A stretch of 22,183 nt of DNA from a virus: positions 1 to 22,183 of the IMG/VR virus record IMGVR_UViG_3300040801_002604; one strand, 5' to 3'. Position 1 is the stretch's first letter. Each line of letters opens with the position of its first letter. The notes under the pieces were generated by a model, which was not told the origin of the DNA, did not search any database, and worked only from the letters and a program-made list of their open reading frames with translations. The position numbers were made by a program, and so were the translations under genes. Of the stretch, positions 2,833 through 19,623 are shown piece after piece.

Positions 2833-4272
2833 TTAGTAGAGGTCATCCGAATCATCGAATGCACTTACCGTATCCAACTCACGGAAGTAGTTGTCGGCAT
2901 CAAACACTTCTACGATACCAATACCATCTCCGCCGTCAGCAGAAGTCAGGTGTGCGGTGTAGCCACCGGGAGGTAGGCAAGTGTAAATTCCTGCATCAGT
3001 CGGCTCCATTACATCACCAAATCCACTGTCAATAATGTTGAATGCGTTATCCAGATCATCTTGCCAGTCATTATTGTAATTAATAACCGTCTGTACACCT
3101 TCGATTCTCGTCCAGAGTGTCAGTTGTGGATCAGGTAGAAGAATATCAGAGTTGGGGAGACCTACGCTCTGTCCTCGTCCCCGGATTACAACACAGAGAT
3201 TTTCATCGGGCGCACCAGCAGGCTTTCTGATAATGAACCCACCAACAACCTTTGCTGGACCATCCATAACAAATGCTCTCGTTGAGATGTTACCAAGCAA
3301 TACTGGCTGCTCTGCGGGTGGAGGCGTGACTGGTGGAGCCGGATTAACGATGGCGCAACCATCAAGGTCAACTTCAGTACTGGGCGGGGTTCCCGGACAC
3401 AAATCGTCTCCGTTCGGTACTCCATCACCGTCATCGTCACGTTCACAGCCGTCAGGTCCTACGGCAGTACCTTCGGGCGTGTTAGGACACTGGTCGCCTC
3501 CATTAGGAACGCCGTCATCATCATCATCGCGCTCGCAGCCTTCTTTATCTACTTCTGCGCCGGGAGGAGTGTTCGGACAATGATCGTCGTCATTCGGTAC
3601 ACCGTCATTGTCGTCATCGGGATCGGGGCCGTGATCCGGGACAGAGACTCCAAACTTAATATCATCGATAAACGTTGAACCTTTAGCTTGAAACTCTACC
3701 TTTAGGGCACCCTCGGCATTTACCAACACTGTTTGTAACGAGTTTTGCCAGTTGTTTGTTCCGTCAGGAACAACAGGTACATCTACCATCTTAATTAGAC
3801 CCCGTTCGCCAAAAACTTTAATCTTAGAACCACGGCTTTCATTATCCATTGTTGTAACGGATTCGAAAAACACTGGCTCATCAAAAGTCATTACAAACTT
3901 GTGTGTACTCGCGTACTCACGAACACTACCATTAGGGTGTTGATATTTTGATACAATAAGAACATTTCCCTGCAATGGATTAAAGTGGTCTTGACTTGGT
4001 GATGGGAGGTTGGGGTCAGAAGAATTCTGAATCACCATTGGTCTAGACGATGGTGTATTATCGAAATTAATTCCAAGATTGGAATACTCATCCCCGTTGA
4101 AGATTTGGCCAGCGGTCAGGTCTGTGAAATCAACGACTACATCGTTGTATTCAACAACCTCAACTGACTGAGCCTTGGAAGCCAATAATTCGGCCCCGTT
4201 ATCTGACATTGCATTACTCGGAAGAGCAAAAGCAATGATGATTGCTAACATACTAAAAATTACAGATTTCAT
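2833..4272 (-). CDS. Secreted protein with three thrombospondin type 3 repeats (moron)
   Basis: A 479-aa protein. It has a signal peptide at residues 1-21 (MKSVIF, a hydrophobic core, and the site SNA before MSD). An N-terminal beta-rich domain spans about 45-210. Three thrombospondin type 3 repeats span about 219-306, each with D-rich calcium-binding loops, DGVPN and a C..GC pair. A proline-rich linker (309-322) leads to a C-terminal beta domain (324-461) with the NISTRAFV, GGFII and NDWQ pattern found in many exported proteins of environmental bacteria. Export to periplasm or outside is expected, since there is no lipobox. An AAGGGG ribosome site precedes the ATG. It has its own sigma-70 promoter and UUCG terminator, the usual form of a phage 'moron'. 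It is probably expressed outside the late programme and alters the host surface. A virion role is less likely because of the signal peptide. Confidence 0.85.
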   Translation of the reverse strand: MKSVIFSMLAIIIAFALPSNAMSDNGAELLASKAQSVEVVEYNDVVVDFTDLTAGQIFNGDEYSNLGINFDNTPSSRPMVIQNSSDPNLPSPSQDHFNPLQGNVLIVSKYQHPNGSVREYASTHKFVMTFDEPVFFESVTTMDNESRGSKIKVFGERGLIKMVDVPVVPDGTNNWQNSLQTVLVNAEGALKVEFQAKGSTFIDDIKFGVSVPDHGPDPDDDNDGVPNDDDHCPNTPPGAEVDKEGCERDDDDDGVPNGGDQCPNTPEGTAVGPDGCERDDDGDGVPNGDDLCPGTPPSTEVDLDGCAIVNPAPPVTPPPAEQPVLLGNISTRAFVMDGPAKVVGGFIIRKPAGAPDENLCVVIRGRGQSVGLPNSDILLPDPQLTLWTRIEGVQTVINYNNDWQDDLDNAFNIIDSGFGDVMEPTDAGIYTCLPPGGYTAHLTSADGGDGIGIVEVFDADNYFRELDTVSAFDDSDDLY

Positions 4273-5682: not shown

Positions 5683-5711
5683 ATTATAAATACCCTATAG
5701 AACAATGTCAA
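5683..5711 (-). promoter_or_regulatory. Perfect consensus sigma-70 promoter, leftward
   Basis: Minus-strand -35 TTGACA at 5706-5711 and -10 TATAAT at 5683-5688, spacer 17 bp: a full match to consensus. It drives the operon starting at 5645. Its -10 box shares bases with a rightward late promoter on the other strand. Confidence 0.9.
5685..5692 (+). promoter_or_regulatory. T4-type late promoter TATAAATA, rightward
   Basis: An exact TATAAATA octamer on the plus strand. Transcription would start near 5698, giving a leader with AAGGAGA before the ATG at 5724. The phage encodes the sigma factor that reads such sites (gp55 at 15870). Confidence 0.85.
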
Positions 5712-5723
5712 GGAGATTTTCAG

Positions 5724-6491
5724 ATGAAATTACTATCATCACTAATATGCGAAGGCGAGAAGTTTTCACTTAATGATTTAACACTATTACAGCGCGTAAT
5801 GCTTAAAAAGGTTTACACTGGAAGAATTGATGCTTTTAGTCCTGACCTGTCCGATAGGCAATTAGAAGTACTTGATTCCCTACTCGACCTTGGACTATTG
5901 GATTCGGCCTACGAGGTAACCCCACAAGGCTCCAAGGCTGCGGAGATGCTAGACTCTTACGCGAGGCAAGAAAAAGAAGATATCAGTACAGCAAAACAAA
6001 TTGCTGCCGCCGAAATTAAAGGTAAAAACTTCGAAGACAATGAAGACTACAGTGATGAGTTGGATGATTTTCCTTTTACTGAAGGTGAAGAAATTGCAAT
6101 GAAAGCTAGTGGTTTGAATGAAAAAGAAATTGCAAAACTATTTCTTAGTGAGAGTGATGAGGAATATCATGGACACCCTAGTTATGCTCATTGGAATGCT
6201 GCTCTTTGGGTTAGCAGTAATGAAGGATTATATAATCTAGCAGTTAAGAGTGATCGCGACATGTTCATTGATATAATGAATGGATGGGAAAGCCCGGATG
6301 GGGTGGTATTTGATAAGAATTTAGCAGGGTATGCGTGGGACATGGTTACCGATTCAAAGGTGGAAGAGCCTGAAGACGATTACGATGACTCCTATAGTGA
6401 TGTAAATGATTATTCCGATGATGGTGATGCTCTAGCATCCGCCGGTTGGGGTACCGATGAGGACTATGGCTATTTTGGGGACGATTACTAA
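5724..6491 (+). CDS. Late acidic protein with capsid-targeting-like leader, 255 aa
   Basis: Starts MKLLSSLICE|GEKF, a leader ending in I-C-E like the gp21-cleaved leaders of T4 internal head proteins. Residues about 15-75 look like a winged helix (LLQRVMLKK, LLDLGLL, VTPQG). The middle is acidic, followed by HPSYAHWNAALWVSSNEGLYNLA, a pattern I recall from small phage proteins of unknown function. The last 45 residues are a D/Y-rich acidic tail. The ATG at 5724 is chosen over one at 5679 because of AAGGAGA and because the late promoter lies between them. Probably a virion-internal protein; function unknown. Confidence 0.8.
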   Translation: MKLLSSLICEGEKFSLNDLTLLQRVMLKKVYTGRIDAFSPDLSDRQLEVLDSLLDLGLLDSAYEVTPQGSKAAEMLDSYARQEKEDISTAKQIAAAEIKGKNFEDNEDYSDELDDFPFTEGEEIAMKASGLNEKEIAKLFLSESDEEYHGHPSYAHWNAALWVSSNEGLYNLAVKSDRDMFIDIMNGWESPDGVVFDKNLAGYAWDMVTDSKVEEPEDDYDDSYSDVNDYSDDGDALASAGWGTDEDYGYFGDDY

Positions 6492-6492
6492 A

Positions 6493-6762
6493 ATGAAACT
6501 TAAGGATATTTTTATAGTAGAGGATATGCATAGAGATTTGGACCCTAGGAATTTCAACCCAAACGGAAGACAGGTTGAAAAGGTTTATTCATGGAAAGAG
6601 TTCGAGAAGACTTTACCGGAAATTACTAATGGTGTAGAGCATAAAGAGTCTAGGACTGGGGGTACTGTTTCTATAGCTTACGCAAAAAACCCAAAAACTC
6701 ATATGTCAGTCATAACCGGGGTTTTTAGACATGTTGATAATTATGGAGAGGTTCTAGTGTAA
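6493..6762 (+). CDS. Small late protein with capsid-targeting-like leader, 89 aa
   Basis: Starts MKLKDIFIVE|DMHRDLDP; the leader ends in I-V-E. The rest (YSWKEFEKTLPEI, TGGTVSIAYAKNP, ITGVFRHVDN) suggests a small beta domain of unknown type. The start at 6493 lies 1 nt after the stop of the previous gene; an upstream in-frame ATG at 6457 lies inside it. The stop overlaps the next ATG (TAATG), so the three plus-strand genes form one late operon. Confidence 0.75.
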   Translation: MKLKDIFIVEDMHRDLDPRNFNPNGRQVEKVYSWKEFEKTLPEITNGVEHKESRTGGTVSIAYAKNPKTHMSVITGVFRHVDNYGEVLV

Positions 6763-6902
6763 TGAAGCTTTTAAAAGAGTTGTTATTAGAAGATTACGAC
6801 GAAACACCAGTGATGAAAGAATGTGATTCCTGTGGTGAAATATATAATGGTGATGAGAACGACAAAGAGTGCCCACACTGTGGTGAAAAGTTCGAAGATT
6901 AA
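6762..6902 (+). CDS. Zinc-ribbon miniprotein with capsid-targeting-like leader, 46 aa
   Basis: A 46-codon gene overlapping the previous stop (TAATG). The protein starts MKLLKELLLE|DYDE, a leader ending in L-L-E. It then has CDSCG and CPHCG knuckles 13 residues apart, a four-cysteine zinc ribbon. Its stop codon overlaps the stop of the convergent gene at 6899. It may bind nucleic acid or protein; after leader removal only about 36 residues would remain. Third gene of the late operon from the promoter at 5685. Confidence 0.75.
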   Translation: MKLLKELLLEDYDETPVMKECDSCGEIYNGDENDKECPHCGEKFED

Positions 6903-8167
6903 ACTTCCGCGAACTTAACCCTTGTAAGTACTGTAGTCTTCCTTCCACGGTACTCATCATGCTTCTTGATGGTACCAGTAATATCATAAGTGACGCCTTC
7001 TTCCATTTCTTTCGCACTACTATTCCACCAAGTGAATGAATTGCCCGTGTCAACATCTTCCATTTTGGTTAGCTGGGTGTATCCATATTGAGTTGAAATC
7101 AACTTAACGCTCTTTACTTCAACGCGAGTCGTTGGAAGCTTTCCCTTAACATCTCCTACATGCTCATTGGATTTATTCTTATTAGCTTCTTCTTTGGACT
7201 TGTGATTGTTGTAAGCGGCAAACAGTGCGGCTACAATACCAACATCACGGTATGTTACTCTGGAACTTTTTAGAGCGACATCAAGATTATGGAGGAAATT
7301 ATTATTTTCCTTATCTTCGTCGGGAATGGCATTGAACCAATTTTTGGCTTCATCAACGTATGCTTGTAACTTTTCTTCATTCTGCTTAAGTGCTGCTCTA
7401 ACTTCCTTCCTTTCTCTTATATCTTCGTCGGACGTATCGCTGCCGAATGTGTACCAACGAACCTGATCAGCCGTTGATGGTCCCTGATCTTCTCCCCAGC
7501 TTGATGCTTTTTTGTAACCAAACTTCTTGACAAAATATGCAGCGACAAGAAGTGCGTAGTCAGGGCTTATGGAATATTCTGAGCGGGCGGCTTTAGGCCC
7601 ATCGTAGTCCTCGGCCTTGGAGAATACTTGTTCAATCCTATCACTAAGTGAGAAATAGTACAGTACTGACTTTGGATCAGTTCCACCCAAAAAATCCGCA
7701 AGGCAATTTCTTCCCACTTGACGAAGTTTACCTGTAGATTCTTCTTTTACAATGTACGTATCAATTCTACGGCGAACTTTTTTACAATGGTCACAGTATC
7801 CGGGATCGGCATCATGAAAGTCCTTAAGGTTAGCTTCATTTACTCCCGGAACTGTACGGATAATGTTACCCCCATCCTTGTGTTCGATAGTCGCTAGAAA
7901 CGTATATCCGGGGACATGAGGGGGTTCCCCTGTAACTTTTACAGTAAAATATTTTTCCTGCGTGTTGGAGTCTTTGACATCCTTGTAAAATGTCTTGACT
8001 TTCTCAATTTCAATGGGAGGGGTTCCAAGCTTCGCAGCACGACGATTTAGTTTGGCAATTTCATGCTCAAGAAATGGATATACTCTTGAGCTTACATCTT
8101 CAGTACGTGAATAATCTGCGCTCGTGTTACTTTCGTTAAGCTGTACGTGTAGTTCTGAAAGCTTCAT
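6899..8167 (-). CDS. Zinc-motif and OB-like protein with capsid-targeting-like leader, 422 aa
   Basis: Starts MKLSELHVQLNE|SNTS; the leader ends in L-N-E. Residues about 122-160 carry GYCDHCKKVRRR, then TGKLRQVGRNCLADFLGG, a putative metal-binding module I recall from uncharacterised plasmid and phage proteins. The last 75 residues (VEVKSVKLISTQYGYTQLTK, NSFTWWNSS, YDITGTIKKHDEYRGRKTT) look like an OB-type strand pattern, suggesting nucleic-acid binding. It is encoded after gp21 and the 156-aa gene, about where T4 has gp22/gp23. GGAATGAAAG lies just before the ATG. Possibly an internal head protein injected with DNA; this is inference. Confidence 0.8.
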   Translation of the reverse strand: MKLSELHVQLNESNTSADYSRTEDVSSRVYPFLEHEIAKLNRRAAKLGTPPIEIEKVKTFYKDVKDSNTQEKYFTVKVTGEPPHVPGYTFLATIEHKDGGNIIRTVPGVNEANLKDFHDADPGYCDHCKKVRRRIDTYIVKEESTGKLRQVGRNCLADFLGGTDPKSVLYYFSLSDRIEQVFSKAEDYDGPKAARSEYSISPDYALLVAAYFVKKFGYKKASSWGEDQGPSTADQVRWYTFGSDTSDEDIRERKEVRAALKQNEEKLQAYVDEAKNWFNAIPDEDKENNNFLHNLDVALKSSRVTYRDVGIVAALFAAYNNHKSKEEANKNKSNEHVGDVKGKLPTTRVEVKSVKLISTQYGYTQLTKMEDVDTGNSFTWWNSSAKEMEEGVTYDITGTIKKHDEYRGRKTTVLTRVKFAEV

Positions 8168-8192
8168 TATCTTTCATTCCGTGTGTTAAGAG

Positions 8193-8663
8193 TTATTCTA
8201 TATTATCAGGAGTATTGGGGGTTGTCAAGTCCATATACCGGCTCACGAACTCACGAGAGGGTTTAAAACTAACACCTCTAAAATTTAAAGTTCCTGTTCG
8301 CTGATTACCGTCATTCATAGTATAGGTTACTTCCAAATCAAAGTTTGCAGGAAGTGAGGTTTTTTTCGTGCAATCTTTAGTGCATCTGAAATTCTTAATA
8401 CCCCCGAAGGATATGTCGTTAATCTCGGATACTAGTTGGGGTGATTCATTAATTACTCTTTCGGCAAAACTCTCGGGTGTAATGTTTAGCTTCATTTCCC
8501 CCGCATTATTCACTTCAGCATAATCATACTCTGTCATAATAATTAAATCAGTTACATCGAATACCATCTCTCCGGTCATATCGAATTCACTATTTCTAAA
8601 GTTGAATACTACCGTTTCTCCAGATTCTTCAACGTTTTCATTGAGTATATTACTTAGTTTCAT
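8193..8663 (-). CDS. Unknown beta-rich protein with capsid-targeting-like leader, 156 aa
   Basis: Starts MKLSNILNE|NVEES; the leader ends in L-N-E. The remainder has alternating hydrophobic strands (ETVVFNFRNSEFDMTGEMVF, FDLEVTYTMNDGNQRTG) and two cysteines in CTKDC. No family is recognised. The ATG overlaps the gp21 stop (ATGA), so it is translated with the protease. It takes the place held by the scaffold gene gp22 in T4 but does not resemble it (not helical). Likely a virion-internal protein. Confidence 0.75.
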   Translation of the reverse strand: MKLSNILNENVEESGETVVFNFRNSEFDMTGEMVFDVTDLIIMTEYDYAEVNNAGEMKLNITPESFAERVINESPQLVSEINDISFGGIKNFRCTKDCTKKTSLPANFDLEVTYTMNDGNQRTGTLNFRGVSFKPSREFVSRYMDLTTPNTPDNIE

Positions 8664-9280
8664 TTGTTGAGAATATTTTCCACAATTTTGAGAATCTCAC
8701 TCTTAAAGTATTTTTGGGCAGAATCATCATGCTTTACACTCTCGGCTAGGGACATTAACTTGGTCCCCTCCATTGCTTCCATTACTGTTGTAGGCATGGC
8801 ACCGGGCGCTGATGGGGTTACGACCAAATCAATAGTCACAAGGTTGAATCCCGAAACACTCCCGCTTTCACTTACAACTCCCGCTCCCCTGCTCGATACT
8901 CCGTAGCGAACCCCTGACTTTGATAGTTCCTGAGCTATAAGACCCATTGGCGTATCGAGTAACTGGGCTTTACCCACTACATTGTTACCGTCCATATAAA
9001 GGTCCTTGATTGCATGAGATATTCTATCCATGTTAATGGTTATGGTGTCCGGGTGATCTAATTCACCAAACACTCCACCGAATTCATTGATTTGCTTTCT
9101 AATAGCTTCTACATTCTCAGTCATCTCGGAAAGAGAATAGACCCTACCATTTCGGTTTTCGATTTCCGCCTGCATGAATACACCATTAAGGTAGGTTTTT
9201 CCATCGTTTTTACTGGCTTCAGTAATAATATTACCCTCCCCGGCGGTTACTGTCTCAATTAATAGCTGTTGTTTACTCAT
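8660..9280 (-). CDS. gp21: Prohead core protease, T4 gp21-like
   Basis: A 206-aa serine protease of the T4 gp21/herpesvirus assemblin type, close to the 212 aa of T4 gp21. Visible landmarks are MQAEIENRNGRVY, the histidine in ELDHP (H76), and the nucleophile region GVSSRG (S129/S130). The family matures the prohead by cutting after (I/L)-x-E. Such sites are present near both ends of this protein (LLIE at 6-9, LAE at 178-180), consistent with self-cleavage. The ATG at 9280 follows AGGAAAAA; an in-frame ATG upstream (9364) lies inside the previous gene and is rejected. It overlaps both neighbours. Confidence 0.92.
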   Translation of the reverse strand: MSKQQLLIETVTAGEGNIITEASKNDGKTYLNGVFMQAEIENRNGRVYSLSEMTENVEAIRKQINEFGGVFGELDHPDTITINMDRISHAIKDLYMDGNNVVGKAQLLDTPMGLIAQELSKSGVRYGVSSRGAGVVSESGSVSGFNLVTIDLVVTPSAPGAMPTTVMEAMEGTKLMSLAESVKHDDSAQKYFKSEILKIVENILNK

Positions 9281-10385
9281 GATTTTTCCTGCTTCGTGGT
9301 TCATTATGCGCTTCATATTCCTGATAAGTAAGGTACATATCAGTATCCGGGTCGTAGTACTCACCTTCCTTGGGATCGTAATAGACTACCTTGCCACTTC
9401 TTAGTCTAAATGGCCCCTCTAATCCTTGATCTTCCCTATCTGTATATCTTTCCCTATCAATATCAGGCATTACCGTATAGCCTTCACCCATTATTTCAGG
9501 AATATCAATACCATAATAAGATAGAAGTTGTATCCACTGATCGGCGGTTAATACAATTGAATTTGGCTGTATCGTGCCATGTCTGACATCTGAAAAGTTT
9601 AAAGGTACTGCGTTCATTACCTTTACTACAGCTTTCTTTCTGAGATCATTCGGAAGTTTTTCTTCTCTGTGATTCTTCAATGAAAGCTCAATAAATTCTG
9701 ATCTACCGTTAGAACTTCTGAATCGCGGCTTAGGGATGTTAAGTTTACGTGATAGCATTCTTAATGCTTTGACTGTGGCCTTTTGTTTTAATGTGGCCTC
9801 AGTCAACAATTTAGTACTTTCACTTAACCTGAATTTATCTGTTAGAAATGATACCAAAGCTTTAATGTCATCAAATTCTTGAGGTCTCTCTTCACCGTCC
9901 AATTTAAATAAAATTCCAGTTTTATAATCTTGGAGATCAATGCTAAGTTCACCTACTTTTTTGCCCCCAACTAAAACGTCATCGCCTACAAACTTAATAC
10001 TTCCGGCATTAAGTTCCATTAGTTTTTGAATTTTTGTTTCTATCAGTTTAGAGAGTTTTGAATTGGCCTGTTCTTTGTCACCACTAACAACGGCTAAAAC
10101 TGCATCTTCCATTAAATTGGGGGTGCTTGACTCTTCAAGTCCGAATCTATCAACTGCGTGTTTTTGAACATCTTCAGGTAAATCAGAAAAGGAAATTTCT
10201 TTGTTATACGCAGACATTGAATTCATATCAAAGTCTCCGAACTGAGAAAAACCGTACTGAGGATTTGTGGGGTCATCACTTAGACCCAAAGCACCTTCGT
10301 CGGGGCTATTAGTGAGGAACACGGTGTATCTATCAACCGTTTCTCCTCCATTATCGAATACTCTAAAAACTTCATTATAATTCAT
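9273..10385 (-). CDS. 370-aa protein between core genes and gp21; probable head protein
   Basis: Residues 1-60 (VFDNGGETVDRYTVFL, GLSDDPTNPQYGFSQFG, then DLPEDVQKHAVDRF at about 69-82) match a small recurrent module I recall from phage and bacterial proteins of unknown function. Residues about 100-140 (MEDAVLAVVSGDKEQANSKLSKLIETKIQKLME) are helical and resemble T4-type prohead core proteins. The C-terminus is a Y/D/E-rich tail. It thus looks like a fusion of an unknown module with a core-like segment. It lies between core genes and gp21 and overlaps gp21 by 8 nt. No capsid-targeting leader is seen at its start. Confidence 0.7.
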   Translation of the reverse strand: MNYNEVFRVFDNGGETVDRYTVFLTNSPDEGALGLSDDPTNPQYGFSQFGDFDMNSMSAYNKEISFSDLPEDVQKHAVDRFGLEESSTPNLMEDAVLAVVSGDKEQANSKLSKLIETKIQKLMELNAGSIKFVGDDVLVGGKKVGELSIDLQDYKTGILFKLDGEERPQEFDDIKALVSFLTDKFRLSESTKLLTEATLKQKATVKALRMLSRKLNIPKPRFRSSNGRSEFIELSLKNHREEKLPNDLRKKAVVKVMNAVPLNFSDVRHGTIQPNSIVLTADQWIQLLSYYGIDIPEIMGEGYTVMPDIDRERYTDREDQGLEGPFRLRSGKVVYYDPKEGEYYDPDTDMYLTYQEYEAHNEPRSRKNHE

Positions 10386-10394
10386 AACAATACC

Positions 10395-10568
10395 TTAACC
10401 GTTAGCTGCTCTGGACTTATATAACATGTCCATCATATCCTTCTTCTTACACCACTCTTGCTCTTCTTCAGTAAGATCGTCAAAATTAGAGCAATCAACG
10501 TCTTTAAACTTTTCAGTGTCATCCTTACATTCTTCAGCCTTTTCCGCCAAGAACTCCTTAAACCTCAT
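10395..10568 (-). CDS. Small prohead-core-like protein with capsid-targeting leader, 57 aa
   Basis: Starts MRFKEFLAE|KAEE, strikingly like the T4 internal-protein leader MKTYQEFIAE|A. The rest is helical and highly charged with four acidic clusters. The ATG overlaps the previous gene (ATGAGGTTTAA). Position between gp67-like and gp21 genes matches T4 gene 68. I call it a core or internal protein rather than naming it gp68, because sequence identity is not evident. Confidence 0.75.
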   Translation of the reverse strand: MRFKEFLAEKAEECKDDTEKFKDVDCSNFDDLTEEEQEWCKKKDMMDMLYKSRAANG

Positions 10569-10890
10569 CGGAATCTTCCTTCTTGGTTATTTCGGACAAA
10601 ATATGCATGATGGAATTTTCATCAACCCGCTCACTTAGGTTCTCTAAGTGGTGGATTATCTCATCGCATTTATCAGGATTATCACAAAGATGCTCACTGC
10701 ATTTACCCAAATCAACGTCATCGGAATCTATATTGCATTTTTTGGCTAAGTATTCGTTGAATTTTTCTTTGGTACCCTTATCACACTTCTTGTACAAAAG
10801 TTCGAGATATGTTTTCATCTCTTCCTTTGTCATCATTTTCTCATGATCTTCATTAAGTGCGTCGATCTCTTTGAGTAATTTAAGATTCAT
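10558..10890 (-). CDS. Prohead-core-like acidic helical protein, 110 aa
   Basis: Starts MNLKLLKEIDALNE|DHEK, with a possible gp21 site (L-N-E) at residue 14. The body is helical and acidic with six cysteines, four of them in KKCDK, KKCNI, KCSEHLC order, unusual for a core protein. The start at 10890 has GAGGAAC upstream and overlaps the gp67-like stop by 11 nt; a longer in-frame extension to 10995 is rejected. It sits in the gp67/gp68 position. Confidence 0.7.
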   Translation of the reverse strand: MNLKLLKEIDALNEDHEKMMTKEEMKTYLELLYKKCDKGTKEKFNEYLAKKCNIDSDDVDLGKCSEHLCDNPDKCDEIIHHLENLSERVDENSIMHILSEITKKEDSDEV

Positions 10891-11026
10891 CTTGGTGTTC
10901 CTCTTTTTTGTCTTTGTTGTCAGCTTCTTCCCTGACTCGGGCATAGACTGCATCGGAAAATTCAGATGCTGCTGCTTCCACATCGCCACGCGCAAGTAGT
11001 TTCATTACGTTATTAAACTCATTCAT
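10880..11026 (-). CDS. gp67: Prohead core protein, T4 gp67-like, 48 aa
   Basis: A 49-codon gene directly after the portal gene. The protein (MNEFNNVMKLLARGDVEAAA..., then YARVREEADNKDKKEEHQDES) has the plan of T4 gp67: a short amphipathic helix with a 'xxLLxxGDxxxA' pattern and a highly acidic tail. It has GGAG before the ATG and a perfect late promoter 24-31 nt upstream. gp67 is a small component of the prohead core that is degraded by gp21. The synteny 20-67 matches T4. Confidence 0.75.
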   Translation of the reverse strand: MNEFNNVMKLLARGDVEAAASEFSDAVYARVREEADNKDKKEEHQDES

Positions 11027-11049: not shown

Positions 11050-11057
11050 TATTTATA
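11050..11057 (-). promoter_or_regulatory. T4-type late promoter TATAAATA before the gp67-like gene
   Basis: Exact TATAAATA on the minus strand; predicted start near 11044, followed by GGAG and the ATG at 11026. It would transcribe the core genes, the 370-aa gene, gp21 and the genes beyond, independently of gp20. Confidence 0.85.
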
Positions 11058-11090: not shown

Positions 11091-12776
11091 CTAGATGGTT
11101 TCTTCTTCTTCAGTCGGCTCTTCGCCTTCTTCTCCACCTAAGTCTAGGTCTTCACCCTCTTCGCCCAACTCTCCTTCCATTTCATCGAATTCCCCGTCTT
11201 CTATGTCTAGCATGTCTCCGCCGCCTCCGCCGCCTTCAAAGCCACCTATACCACCTTCAAAGCCTTGCTCTTCCGCTACATCGGGGTTATAGATTTTAAC
11301 TAGGTCTTCTTTACCGCCGTCCACGGGTATGCCAAGCTCCTCCCTCTTGAGCCTTTCATTCTGTGCCATTTCTTCGGGCGTTAGCTGTAAGTATTTTGTC
11401 ATTGCAAAACGCTCAGATAATGTATCAATACCTACAGCACTGGAGAAGTTATTCAGTCTATCTGCATCAATTGCTAATTCTTTATGTTCTATAAAATTGG
11501 ATGGACTGGGTAATCTTACTTTGAATATGCTGGGGTCCACCACTATTTTCATTTTGGCTAAAAATCTTTTGAACTCTTTATCCAAAGTCATTTCAATATT
11601 TGACTGAAGGCGTTTCACGTACTGAGAGAACTTAATTTCCTGCATGTAGGCAATACCAACTCTGCCGTCATTACTGGCAACTCCCCCACCGTCCATCATA
11701 TTATTCATGTAGGAATCGGGCACTCTCATAGCTCTCCACATTTTGGAGAACCAATATTGCAAATCATCTAAGTTACCAAGACCTGCGCCTCCGGGAAGCG
11801 TCTCCACACGAGAGGCCCTACCCTCGGGCCCAACAGCAAAGAAGAAATCTTCTTGTATAGATTGAGGGTCATAAACTGCTTCAACTGAATCTTTCCCTGC
11901 CTGCTTCACGGGAATTTTTTTCTGTCTAAACTCATTCTTAGTTTTACGTAGAATGTTTTCCCTCTCGGATGCGCGAGCTTTGCCTGTATCAATATAAAAC
12001 ACACGGCGTTCAGGGGCTCGCGCAATGCGGTAAATTAATACGGAATCTTCTAATAATTCTTTCTGCTTATAAGTCCTGTAGGCTGCACGTAGAACCGATT
12101 CACCGAAGGGTGCTTCTGCGTTCATCTCGTCAGAAAGGGAAAAATGAATTACGTTATCCGATTGAACCTCACTATAGTTACTATTTTCCGAATCACTATT
12201 CTTAATGTTTACCGGAATCAGTAGTTTATTAGCGTAGCTTGCAGTAGCGTCATTAAAGTTTAAATTGATATTCCATGATTTTATATCGTAAATATCTTCT
12301 ACACTGACCTTTGCTGCATCTACATGCTTGGGGTGTACATGGATATACTTCTTAAATGGGCCGGTATTATTTCTTAAGAAAAAACAATCACCGTATTTTA
12401 TGGTGTTACGAACAACACCGAATAGTCTGTTGTGCCACTCTTGCACCTCACACCAAGTTTTTAAGGCCGCTTTAAGTGTAACTATAGTTGATGTGTTTAC
12501 CTTATAGTGGTCATTTTCCACATGTACTTCTAATGGTATATCTCTCTTACTTCTATTACCAACCATTTCTTCCGCAATAATATCCAGAGCCCTAGCTATA
12601 TCGACATCAGTATCCATTGTATCATACTCCGAATATCGCTTAAGTCTGGTGTATGATCCACGAACGAGTCTAGTGTACCAGTTTATGCCACCATAGCCCA
12701 TAACATCGGCATTAGTTGACATGGACCTGTTTTCATAACCCGGTTTTAATACTTTAAAATAATTGGTAATTGCCAT
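11091..12776 (-). CDS. gp20: Portal protein, T4 gp20-like
   Basis: A 561-aa protein (T4 gp20: 524). Conserved gp20 stretches are visible: LLEDSVLIYRIARAPERRVFYIDTGK, the ETLPGGAGLGNLDDLQYWF segment and the MWRAMRVPDSYM segment that follow it, and the C-terminal helices near LTPEEMAQNERLKREE. It forms the dodecameric ring at the head vertex through which DNA is packaged and leaves, and starts prohead assembly. The last about 60 residues are a glycine- and acid-rich tail (EGGIGGFEGGGGGG, then EEEE runs), longer than in T4. A GATAAATA element lies upstream; the gp67-like gene follows. Confidence 0.93.
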   Translation of the reverse strand: MAITNYFKVLKPGYENRSMSTNADVMGYGGINWYTRLVRGSYTRLKRYSEYDTMDTDVDIARALDIIAEEMVGNRSKRDIPLEVHVENDHYKVNTSTIVTLKAALKTWCEVQEWHNRLFGVVRNTIKYGDCFFLRNNTGPFKKYIHVHPKHVDAAKVSVEDIYDIKSWNINLNFNDATASYANKLLIPVNIKNSDSENSNYSEVQSDNVIHFSLSDEMNAEAPFGESVLRAAYRTYKQKELLEDSVLIYRIARAPERRVFYIDTGKARASERENILRKTKNEFRQKKIPVKQAGKDSVEAVYDPQSIQEDFFFAVGPEGRASRVETLPGGAGLGNLDDLQYWFSKMWRAMRVPDSYMNNMMDGGGVASNDGRVGIAYMQEIKFSQYVKRLQSNIEMTLDKEFKRFLAKMKIVVDPSIFKVRLPSPSNFIEHKELAIDADRLNNFSSAVGIDTLSERFAMTKYLQLTPEEMAQNERLKREELGIPVDGGKEDLVKIYNPDVAEEQGFEGGIGGFEGGGGGGDMLDIEDGEFDEMEGELGEEGEDLDLGGEEGEEPTEEEETI

Positions 12777-18571: not shown

Positions 18572-19623
18572 TATTTGCACCTATCCCATAACTCGATCAA
18601 TTTATCACTATCAATATCTTTACCTTCAACTCTGTCGAGTAATTTGCGAATCAAACTTACAACTGACTCACTCTGTATCTCTTCCTCAGTCAACTCGCCT
18701 TCTTCTATGGTTACTTCGGTAATTTCATTGATGTTAAATTCTCGCAATTTGTACTTTTCAATTAATACATTCTTAAGGCTACTATGCTGGTCGTATGTAA
18801 TATCAATATCCCCGTCACATTTAACACGGGCATTAGCCTTAAGCAATTTAGGGTTATCAGCTACTTCTGATAGCTTAAGCCTTTGATATTTCGGACAATC
18901 TTCCCAATTTATGAATTCCAATGCACCAGATTCATAATCATATAGGGCCATACCCCGATCATTATCATTGGCATCACCGAAGTCCATAGGGAATGCATTG
19001 CCTATATAGACAACATTACTCTTTCCCTTTTCGTAGTCATCATGACCTTGGCGTTTATGAAAGTGTCCGCTCATAATGATATCTGGTGCAGTAAAGTTCT
19101 TTGGGTCAGGACCCGACTTTTTAGTTACAGTATCCCCTGTCAATACAAATCCCTTAAACTCGAAATGACCTATCCATACAGGTATGTCGAAATACTTCGC
19201 CAGTATGCCATATTCATCTTCAAATAAGTATGGACATACGAGAGTTTTATGTAGGGTAGTATCAATGACCGTAGGATCATCAATCATGTGGAAATTACTA
19301 AGCTCAGAATAAACATATGTTGCAAATACTTCTCGGTTATCACGATAATATAAATCATGATTGCCAACAATGAAGTATACAGGAATGTCTAAAGCATTCA
19401 GTTTTCGGGCGGCATCAATAGCTAGTTTAGCGGTTAGGGAATCAATAGCTGTACGCTCTTCGAACCAGTCGCCACCAAAGTAAATGTGGTCAACGTCATG
19501 ATCTTGGCATTGTTTACAAAACCAATCTATAAAATTACTGCAATCGTTGTTATGGATTATGCTATTACCCTTTCTGCCGAAATGAATATCCGTAAATAAT
19601 GCGGCCTTTTTTAGTTTTTGCAT
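18571..19623 (-). CDS. gp47: Recombination nuclease subunit, T4 gp47-like (SbcD/Mre11)
   Basis: A 350-aa metallophosphoesterase nuclease (T4 gp47: 339 aa). All motifs are present: DIHFG (D12, H14), GGDWFE (D52), VGNHD (N88, H89) and later SGHFHKR. The C-terminal acidic helical part (ITEVTIEEGELTEEEIQ) would bind the gp46 coiled-coil base. It is translationally coupled to gp46 (TAATG) and lies 12 nt after the helicase gene, making a recombination operon. Confidence 0.95.
   Translation of the reverse strand: MQKLKKAALFTDIHFGRKGNSIIHNNDCSNFIDWFCKQCQDHDVDHIYFGGDWFEERTAIDSLTAKLAIDAARKLNALDIPVYFIVGNHDLYYRDNREVFATYVYSELSNFHMIDDPTVIDTTLHKTLVCPYLFEDEYGILAKYFDIPVWIGHFEFKGFVLTGDTVTKKSGPDPKNFTAPDIIMSGHFHKRQGHDDYEKGKSNVVYIGNAFPMDFGDANDNDRGMALYDYESGALEFINWEDCPKYQRLKLSEVADNPKLLKANARVKCDGDIDITYDQHSSLKNVLIEKYKLREFNINEITEVTIEEGELTEEEIQSESVVSLIRKLLDRVEGKDIDSDKLIELWDRCK

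Follow-up and report, generated by a model that had tools for sequence, protein, structure and literature searches.

Many unrelated proteins of a giant T4-related phage appear to share one short, removable tag for entry into the head

The short N-terminal leaders encoded around the prohead protease gene of a giant T4 relative are probably T4-type capsid-targeting sequences, removed by gp21 and carried by an enlarged, exchangeable set of cargo proteins that may then enter the host. The window analysed here is a whole virus record of 22,183 bases, whose source is related to the jumbo phages XacN1, RAS14 and PA5oct. In the proposed mechanism, newly synthesised proteins would dock onto the prohead core by an amphipathic N-terminal helix of 9-13 residues. 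Cleavage by gp21 after (I/L)-x-E would follow, and the mature body would be kept in the head alongside the DNA, probably to enter the host when infection begins. Within this jumbo lineage of the T4 superfamily, the tag is borne genome-wide by many unrelated bodies, which are gained and lost.

The initial annotation described eight gene starts sharing such a leader, and indeed all eight open reading frames and starts are present, each leader ending in (I/L)-x-E at residue 9-14. Gene starts were called with our own gene finder, which gave exactly the quoted start for six of the eight leader genes at first pass; the start of 10890 was obtained after raising the ribosome-site weight, and that of 6493, placed at 6466 by the gene finder, was moved to 6493 by hand. 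This loose motif fits 8 of the 10 genes inside 5.7-11.1 kb, the exceptions being 11026 (MNEFNN...) and 10385 (MNYNEV...), and 0 of 15 elsewhere in the window, a comparison that is not relied on because the region had been picked from the data by the initial annotation, which makes its Fisher value of 4e-5 optimistic. Eight loose matches were observed in the window against 2.0 expected from residue shuffles of the starts. The loose motif is frequent by chance (~6% of starts by shuffling, about 232 of 3,607 gene starts) and was therefore sharpened with residues known from T4 IPIII genetics, where targeting depends mainly on residues 4 and 7 and processing on residues 8 and 10 (PMC9026906). The resulting register rule, built on these IPIII residues and counted from the cut, demands a hydrophobic residue at -6 and -3, I or L at -2 and E at 0. 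The features of the region are as follows.

5685..5691, plus strand: TATAAAT, resembling a T4 late promoter, 39 bases upstream of 5724; one stands at -40 in the XacN1 relative
5724..6491, plus strand: 255-aa protein 5724, with a helical N-terminal domain kept beside gp21 in relatives and a DUF7249 stretch
5724-5753, plus strand: leader of 5724, MKLLSSLICE, full register match
6493..6762, plus strand: 89-aa protein 6493, without detectable relatives
6493-6522, plus strand: leader of 6493, MKLKDIFIVE, loose motif only
6762..6902, plus strand: 46-aa protein 6762, four cysteines, zinc-ribbon-like, every Pfam match under the cut-off
6762-6791, plus strand: leader of 6762, MKLLKELLLE, full register match
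6899..8167, minus strand: 422-aa phrog_2319 protein 8167, with a CxxC-type motif and a C-terminal OB-like fold
8132-8167, minus strand: leader and linker of 8167, MKLSELHVQLNE, loose motif only
8193..8663, minus strand: 156-aa protein 8663, of no known family
8637-8663, minus strand: leader of 8663, MKLSNILNE, full register match
8660..9280, minus strand: gp21-type prohead protease, with Pfam, PHROGs and PDB matches
9254-9280, minus strand: leader of gp21, MSKQQLLIE, loose motif only, equal to the nine-residue self-cleaved propeptide of T4 gp21
9273..10385, minus strand: 370-aa core-region protein 10385, no leader, part of it resembling XacN1 L002:19598-19993
10395..10568, minus strand: 57-aa core-type protein 10568, at the gp67/gp68 position
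10542-10568, minus strand: leader of 10568, MRFKEFLAE, full register match
10558..10890, minus strand: 110-aa core protein 10890, aligned with a XacN1 fusion protein
10849-10890, minus strand: apparent leader of 10890, MNLKLLKEIDALNE, loose motif only, a core cleavage site whose XacN1 counterpart is internal
10880..11026, minus strand: 48-aa gp67-like core protein 11026, no leader, assigned by position and by eye
11091..12776, minus strand: portal protein (gp20), assigned by position and by similarity to the annotated portals of XacN1, RAS14 and PA5oct

The minus strand thus carries a head cluster in T4 order (portal, gp67-like protein, 10890, 10568, 10385, gp21, 8663 and 8167), and the plus strand a compact run, 5724-6493-6762, whose starts overlap or touch, the ATG of 6493 lying 1 base past the stop of 5724. 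The gp21 protein matches PF03420 (Peptidase_S77, E=1.4e-22), phrog_207 (E=9e-59) and the T4 gp21 structure 5jbl_A in the PDB (E=4e-12), the window protein having His and Ser at positions that are Ala in this chain; as judged from its sequence, the protease is intact at the expected residues. No PHROGs match was obtained for 6493, 8663, 10568 and 10890, nor any Pfam match above curated cut-offs, and searching the phage collection by tblastn with 8663 and 6493 gave no match. A second TATAAAT is located at about 11051-11057, at -31 of 11026, the first gene downstream. The number of TATAAAT in the window equals the chance expectation, and late-promoter enrichment ahead of tagged genes, tested overall, was not significant.

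The register rule picks out four genes of the window (5724, 6762, 8663 and 10568) against 0.10-0.20 in shuffles; 6493, 8167, gp21 and 10890 carry the loose (I/L)-x-E only. A genome-wide test was made on G001 (317 kb), the nearest of the long relatives, whose gp21 is 80% identical to that of the window. Across eight genomes encoding gp21 (G001, G002, XacN1, RAS14, PA5oct, T4, KVP40 and 121Q), 63 register starts were counted against 22.9 expected (2.75-fold, P 4e-12), versus 6 against 6.5 (0.92-fold) in the controls (the gp21-less jumbo phages phiKZ, SPN3US and 201phi2-1, and 50 kb of E. coli), so that enrichment depends on gp21 across the genomes. G001 and RAS14 show it strongly, T4 and XacN1 clearly and PA5oct weakly; among the gp21-bearing genomes, KVP40 and 121Q showed no enrichment and G002 a weak, non-significant one. 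The leader consensus in this lineage is MKLxxILxE, and few positions of its profile are as well conserved as -2 (I/L) and 0 (E). In T4, eight starts fit the register rule, among them IPII, IPIII and gp24. A profile trained only on G001 and applied to the 138 T4 genes placed gp24 1st, gp21 6th, Alt 9th and gp22 10th, with IPII and IPIII only 32nd-33rd; T4 gp24 is known to be shortened by ten residues and gp21 by nine (PMC9958956). Two T4 starts (NC_000866) that fit the capsid-targeting register are that of gp2 (gene 2, 76061-76885; MAIFQIINE before STPQ) and that of gene 61.1 (18966-19130; MKTFKEFIKE before DMVA).

The leader is separable from the body that it precedes. In the 8663 family, M1, K2, L7 and E9 are kept without change by three relatives whose bodies are 24-26% identical to that of the window, one of which has about 190 extra residues immediately after the leader. 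The 8167 body is widespread; it is present without a leader in seven phages of other lineages, and with a leader and a variable linker only in the window, G001 and G004, the G004 homologue beginning MKLNQLLIE. The AlphaFold model of 8167 has a middling mean pLDDT of 69.7, and its OB-fold matches are weak, none with E below 0.001; an alignment-based pattern scan for this family found no conserved blocks to build on. Furthermore, in 13 aligned homologues of a kinase-like protein, an E is followed at once, or nearly so, by P(L/I)P, and the stretch ahead of this E varies from 9 to over 40 residues. The predicted structure of this protein (pLDDT 84.6) falls below 50 only at residues 1-10, and its kinase-fold matches reach probability 1.00 with low TM-scores. 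The enrichment and the 8663 and 8167 families thus bear out the view, already taken in the initial annotation, of a T4-type modular leader on unrelated bodies in a gp21 phage. In G004, a TnpB/transposase-like gene, recognised by eye, lies between the homologues of 8167 and 8663 (L131:1383-2567, minus strand).

The tag had been described as lying near gp21, a restriction that does not hold, since the 16 register-positive genes of G001 are spread over the genome. They include the kinase-like protein and an ADP-ribosyltransferase-like protein, the latter resemblance having been noted by eye only, with no family match; a scan for relatives of this protein returned only itself. Weaker members, with similar starts that fit the looser motif only, are a GNAT domain protein, an AAA_33/polynucleotide-kinase-like protein and a tRNA nucleotidyltransferase (PF01743, E=2.6e-34). 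Two further tagged genes are inserted in the G001 head cluster between the homologues of 10568 and 10385. Virion data come from the PA5oct record, in which an ESI-MS/MS note is attached to 93 genes. Four PA5oct genes score above 8 on the G001 profile. Three of them (gp333, gp249 and gp246) are MS-positive (P 0.04); the fourth, gp330, occupies the place of the scaffold, with gp21 on one side and the major head protein on the other, and would be expected to be digested. By the register rule, 4 of 7 are MS-positive (P 0.05). Several cut-offs were tried in this comparison, which is the small end of the evidence. In PA5oct, the protein at the position of 10568 starts with MKINDIITE and was detected by MS. 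From the leaders, the protease and these data we infer that tagged proteins would dock, be cleaved and be packaged into the virion; injection and action in the host are suggested more faintly.

Part of the set is indeed better explained otherwise. The initial annotation counted gp21 among the tagged cargo, yet this is the protease itself, and its nine residues correspond to the self-cleaved propeptide described for T4 gp21 (PMC9958956). Likewise, MNLKLLKEIDALNE followed by DH in 10890 aligns with an internal ALISE followed by DH in the XacN1 fusion protein, so this apparent cargo tag is a cleavage site of a core protein, once internal and now at the terminus. These two cases (PMC9958956 for gp21), together with 10568 at the gp67/gp68 position and the conservation of tagged bodies beside gp21 in relatives, are what would be seen if all leaders were sites at which gp21 cuts core and structural proteins, serving head assembly and core clearance with no delivered cargo. 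We regard this as unlikely for the set as a whole, because kinase-like and other enzyme folds, encoded at a distance from the head genes, are found among the tagged bodies of relatives, and because the 8167 body occurs leaderless in other kinds of phages, both observations being unexpected for scaffold parts.

That the leaders merely reflect N-terminal bias is very improbable. Lysine-rich, helix-forming starts could often yield (I/L)-x-E, and the cluster was picked by eye; the loose motif is indeed common, and the pattern proposed with the initial annotation, M-(K/R)-x(5-11)-(I/L)-x-E, found 9 starts in G001 against 11.2 after shuffling. The latter lack of enrichment is explained by E standing at residue 9 in most G001 leaders, and against chance stand the excess of the sharp register in gp21 genomes and its absence from the controls, as well as leaders that are conserved where bodies are not. 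We give even less credence to a leader that would dock to the prohead core and stay uncut in most tagged proteins. Targeting and processing are separable, since Asp at position 10 of T4 IPIII stops only processing and still allows targeting (PMC9026906), but the processing residues are among the most conserved of the leader profile, and the kinase-like family keeps the E that adjoins the body. Cleavable capsid-targeting leaders on exchangeable cargo thus remain the preferred reading.

The closest known system is that of T4, where the internal proteins IPI-IPIII (MKTYQEFIAE) and Alt share with the present set a short N-terminal leader, the hydrophobic spacing, (I/L)-x-E, gp21 and unrelated bodies (PMC9026906, PMC9958956); Alt is an ADP-ribosyltransferase present in the head (PMC9026906, PMC9958956). 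The exact T4 sequence is reported only for IPII and IPIII (PMC9958956), whereas here the consensus is a variant one, the tagged genes are more numerous and the bodies are others. According to the suggestion of a review, the capsid-targeting sequence is an evolutionary mechanism by which T4-like phages package various proteins (PMC9026906). In T-even phages, the injected Ip proteins inhibit GmrSD restriction enzymes, and many were found via their N-terminal signal (PMC12373910). As here, their diverse bodies have only the packaging signal in common (PMC12373910), but no sequence relation was seen between Ip bodies and those of the present set. Signal-bearing internal proteins were thus already known in T-even phages (PMC12373910), and so was the principle of packaging by a leader. 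For the variant consensus and the genome-wide tagged set of this lineage, no description was found in the open papers searched, among which most subscription journals and preprints are missing. In SPN3US, a phiKZ-type phage, the prohead protease strips N-terminal propeptides off many inner-head proteins (PMC5694885), but these mostly exceed 100 residues and have another cut motif, compared with leaders of 9-14 residues here. The gp21 of the window, the leader length and the lack of register enrichment in phiKZ, SPN3US and 201phi2-1 speak against such a system; a search of phiKZ with the window gp21, and of SPN3US and 201phi2-1 with PF03420, gave no match.

Proteins of a related branch start with a leader MRAxEFIxE that runs straight into a twin-arginine-like signal, such as DMSRRGFLGALGAGAMAASGVAQA, and their bodies match GH19, M48 peptidase or LysM/SLT. 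They are encoded at the following loci.

Minus strand: L180:4042-4701, L187:10501-11127, L196:10380-11045, L198:11690-12376, L164:11404-12042
Plus strand: L189:1257-1928, L209:3557-4198, L214:7906-8592, L179:413-1294, L163:3728-4402

The signal occurs in 18 to 20 of 60 IMG/VR pattern matches, which is not a frequency because the pattern demanded two arginines or lysine/arginine-type codons there. At L163:296-6420 and L164:9916-12980, consecutive genes bear a near-identical leader, MRA[NSK]EFI[TVA]E, on unrelated bodies and have the look of cargo islands. Among contig fragments mostly from this branch, gp21 was detected in only 1 of 12 (PF03420) or 2 of 13 (phrog_207); one such twin-arginine contig (G020) encodes a T4-type Gp23, and gp21 was not found in it. 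A literature search on twin-arginine signals of injected phage proteins returned nothing pertinent. A bolder reading is put forward only tentatively: jumbo and environmental phages of the T4 superfamily might possess a genome-wide delivery system, in which one to two dozen exchangeable enzymes (kinase-like, ADP-ribosyltransferase-like, perhaps acetyltransferases and tRNA-end enzymes) are directed by a short tag to the head, to be injected. In the MRAxEFIxE branch, cell-wall hydrolases might bear the tag in front of a twin-arginine export signal; cleavage in the prohead would then expose this signal and direct the injected enzyme to the periplasm.

To our knowledge, the proteins that giant phages inject with their DNA are mostly unknown. 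A large set of candidates for delivery into bacteria on infection could become predictable from sequence: if the leader predicts head cargo, candidate first-minute effectors could be listed in gp21-bearing phages and tried for counter-defence and host take-over, and the leaders would enlarge the set of tags for packaging proteins into phage heads.

Elsewhere in the window, a 479-aa protein with a signal-peptide-like start (2833-4272, minus strand) contains acidic repeats of the type DDDNDGVPNDDDHCPNTP, read by eye as thrombospondin type 3-like, and three tRNA genes (Tyr, His and Asp) are located at 1203-1926 on the minus strand, with a small ORF (1289-1672) between the first two.
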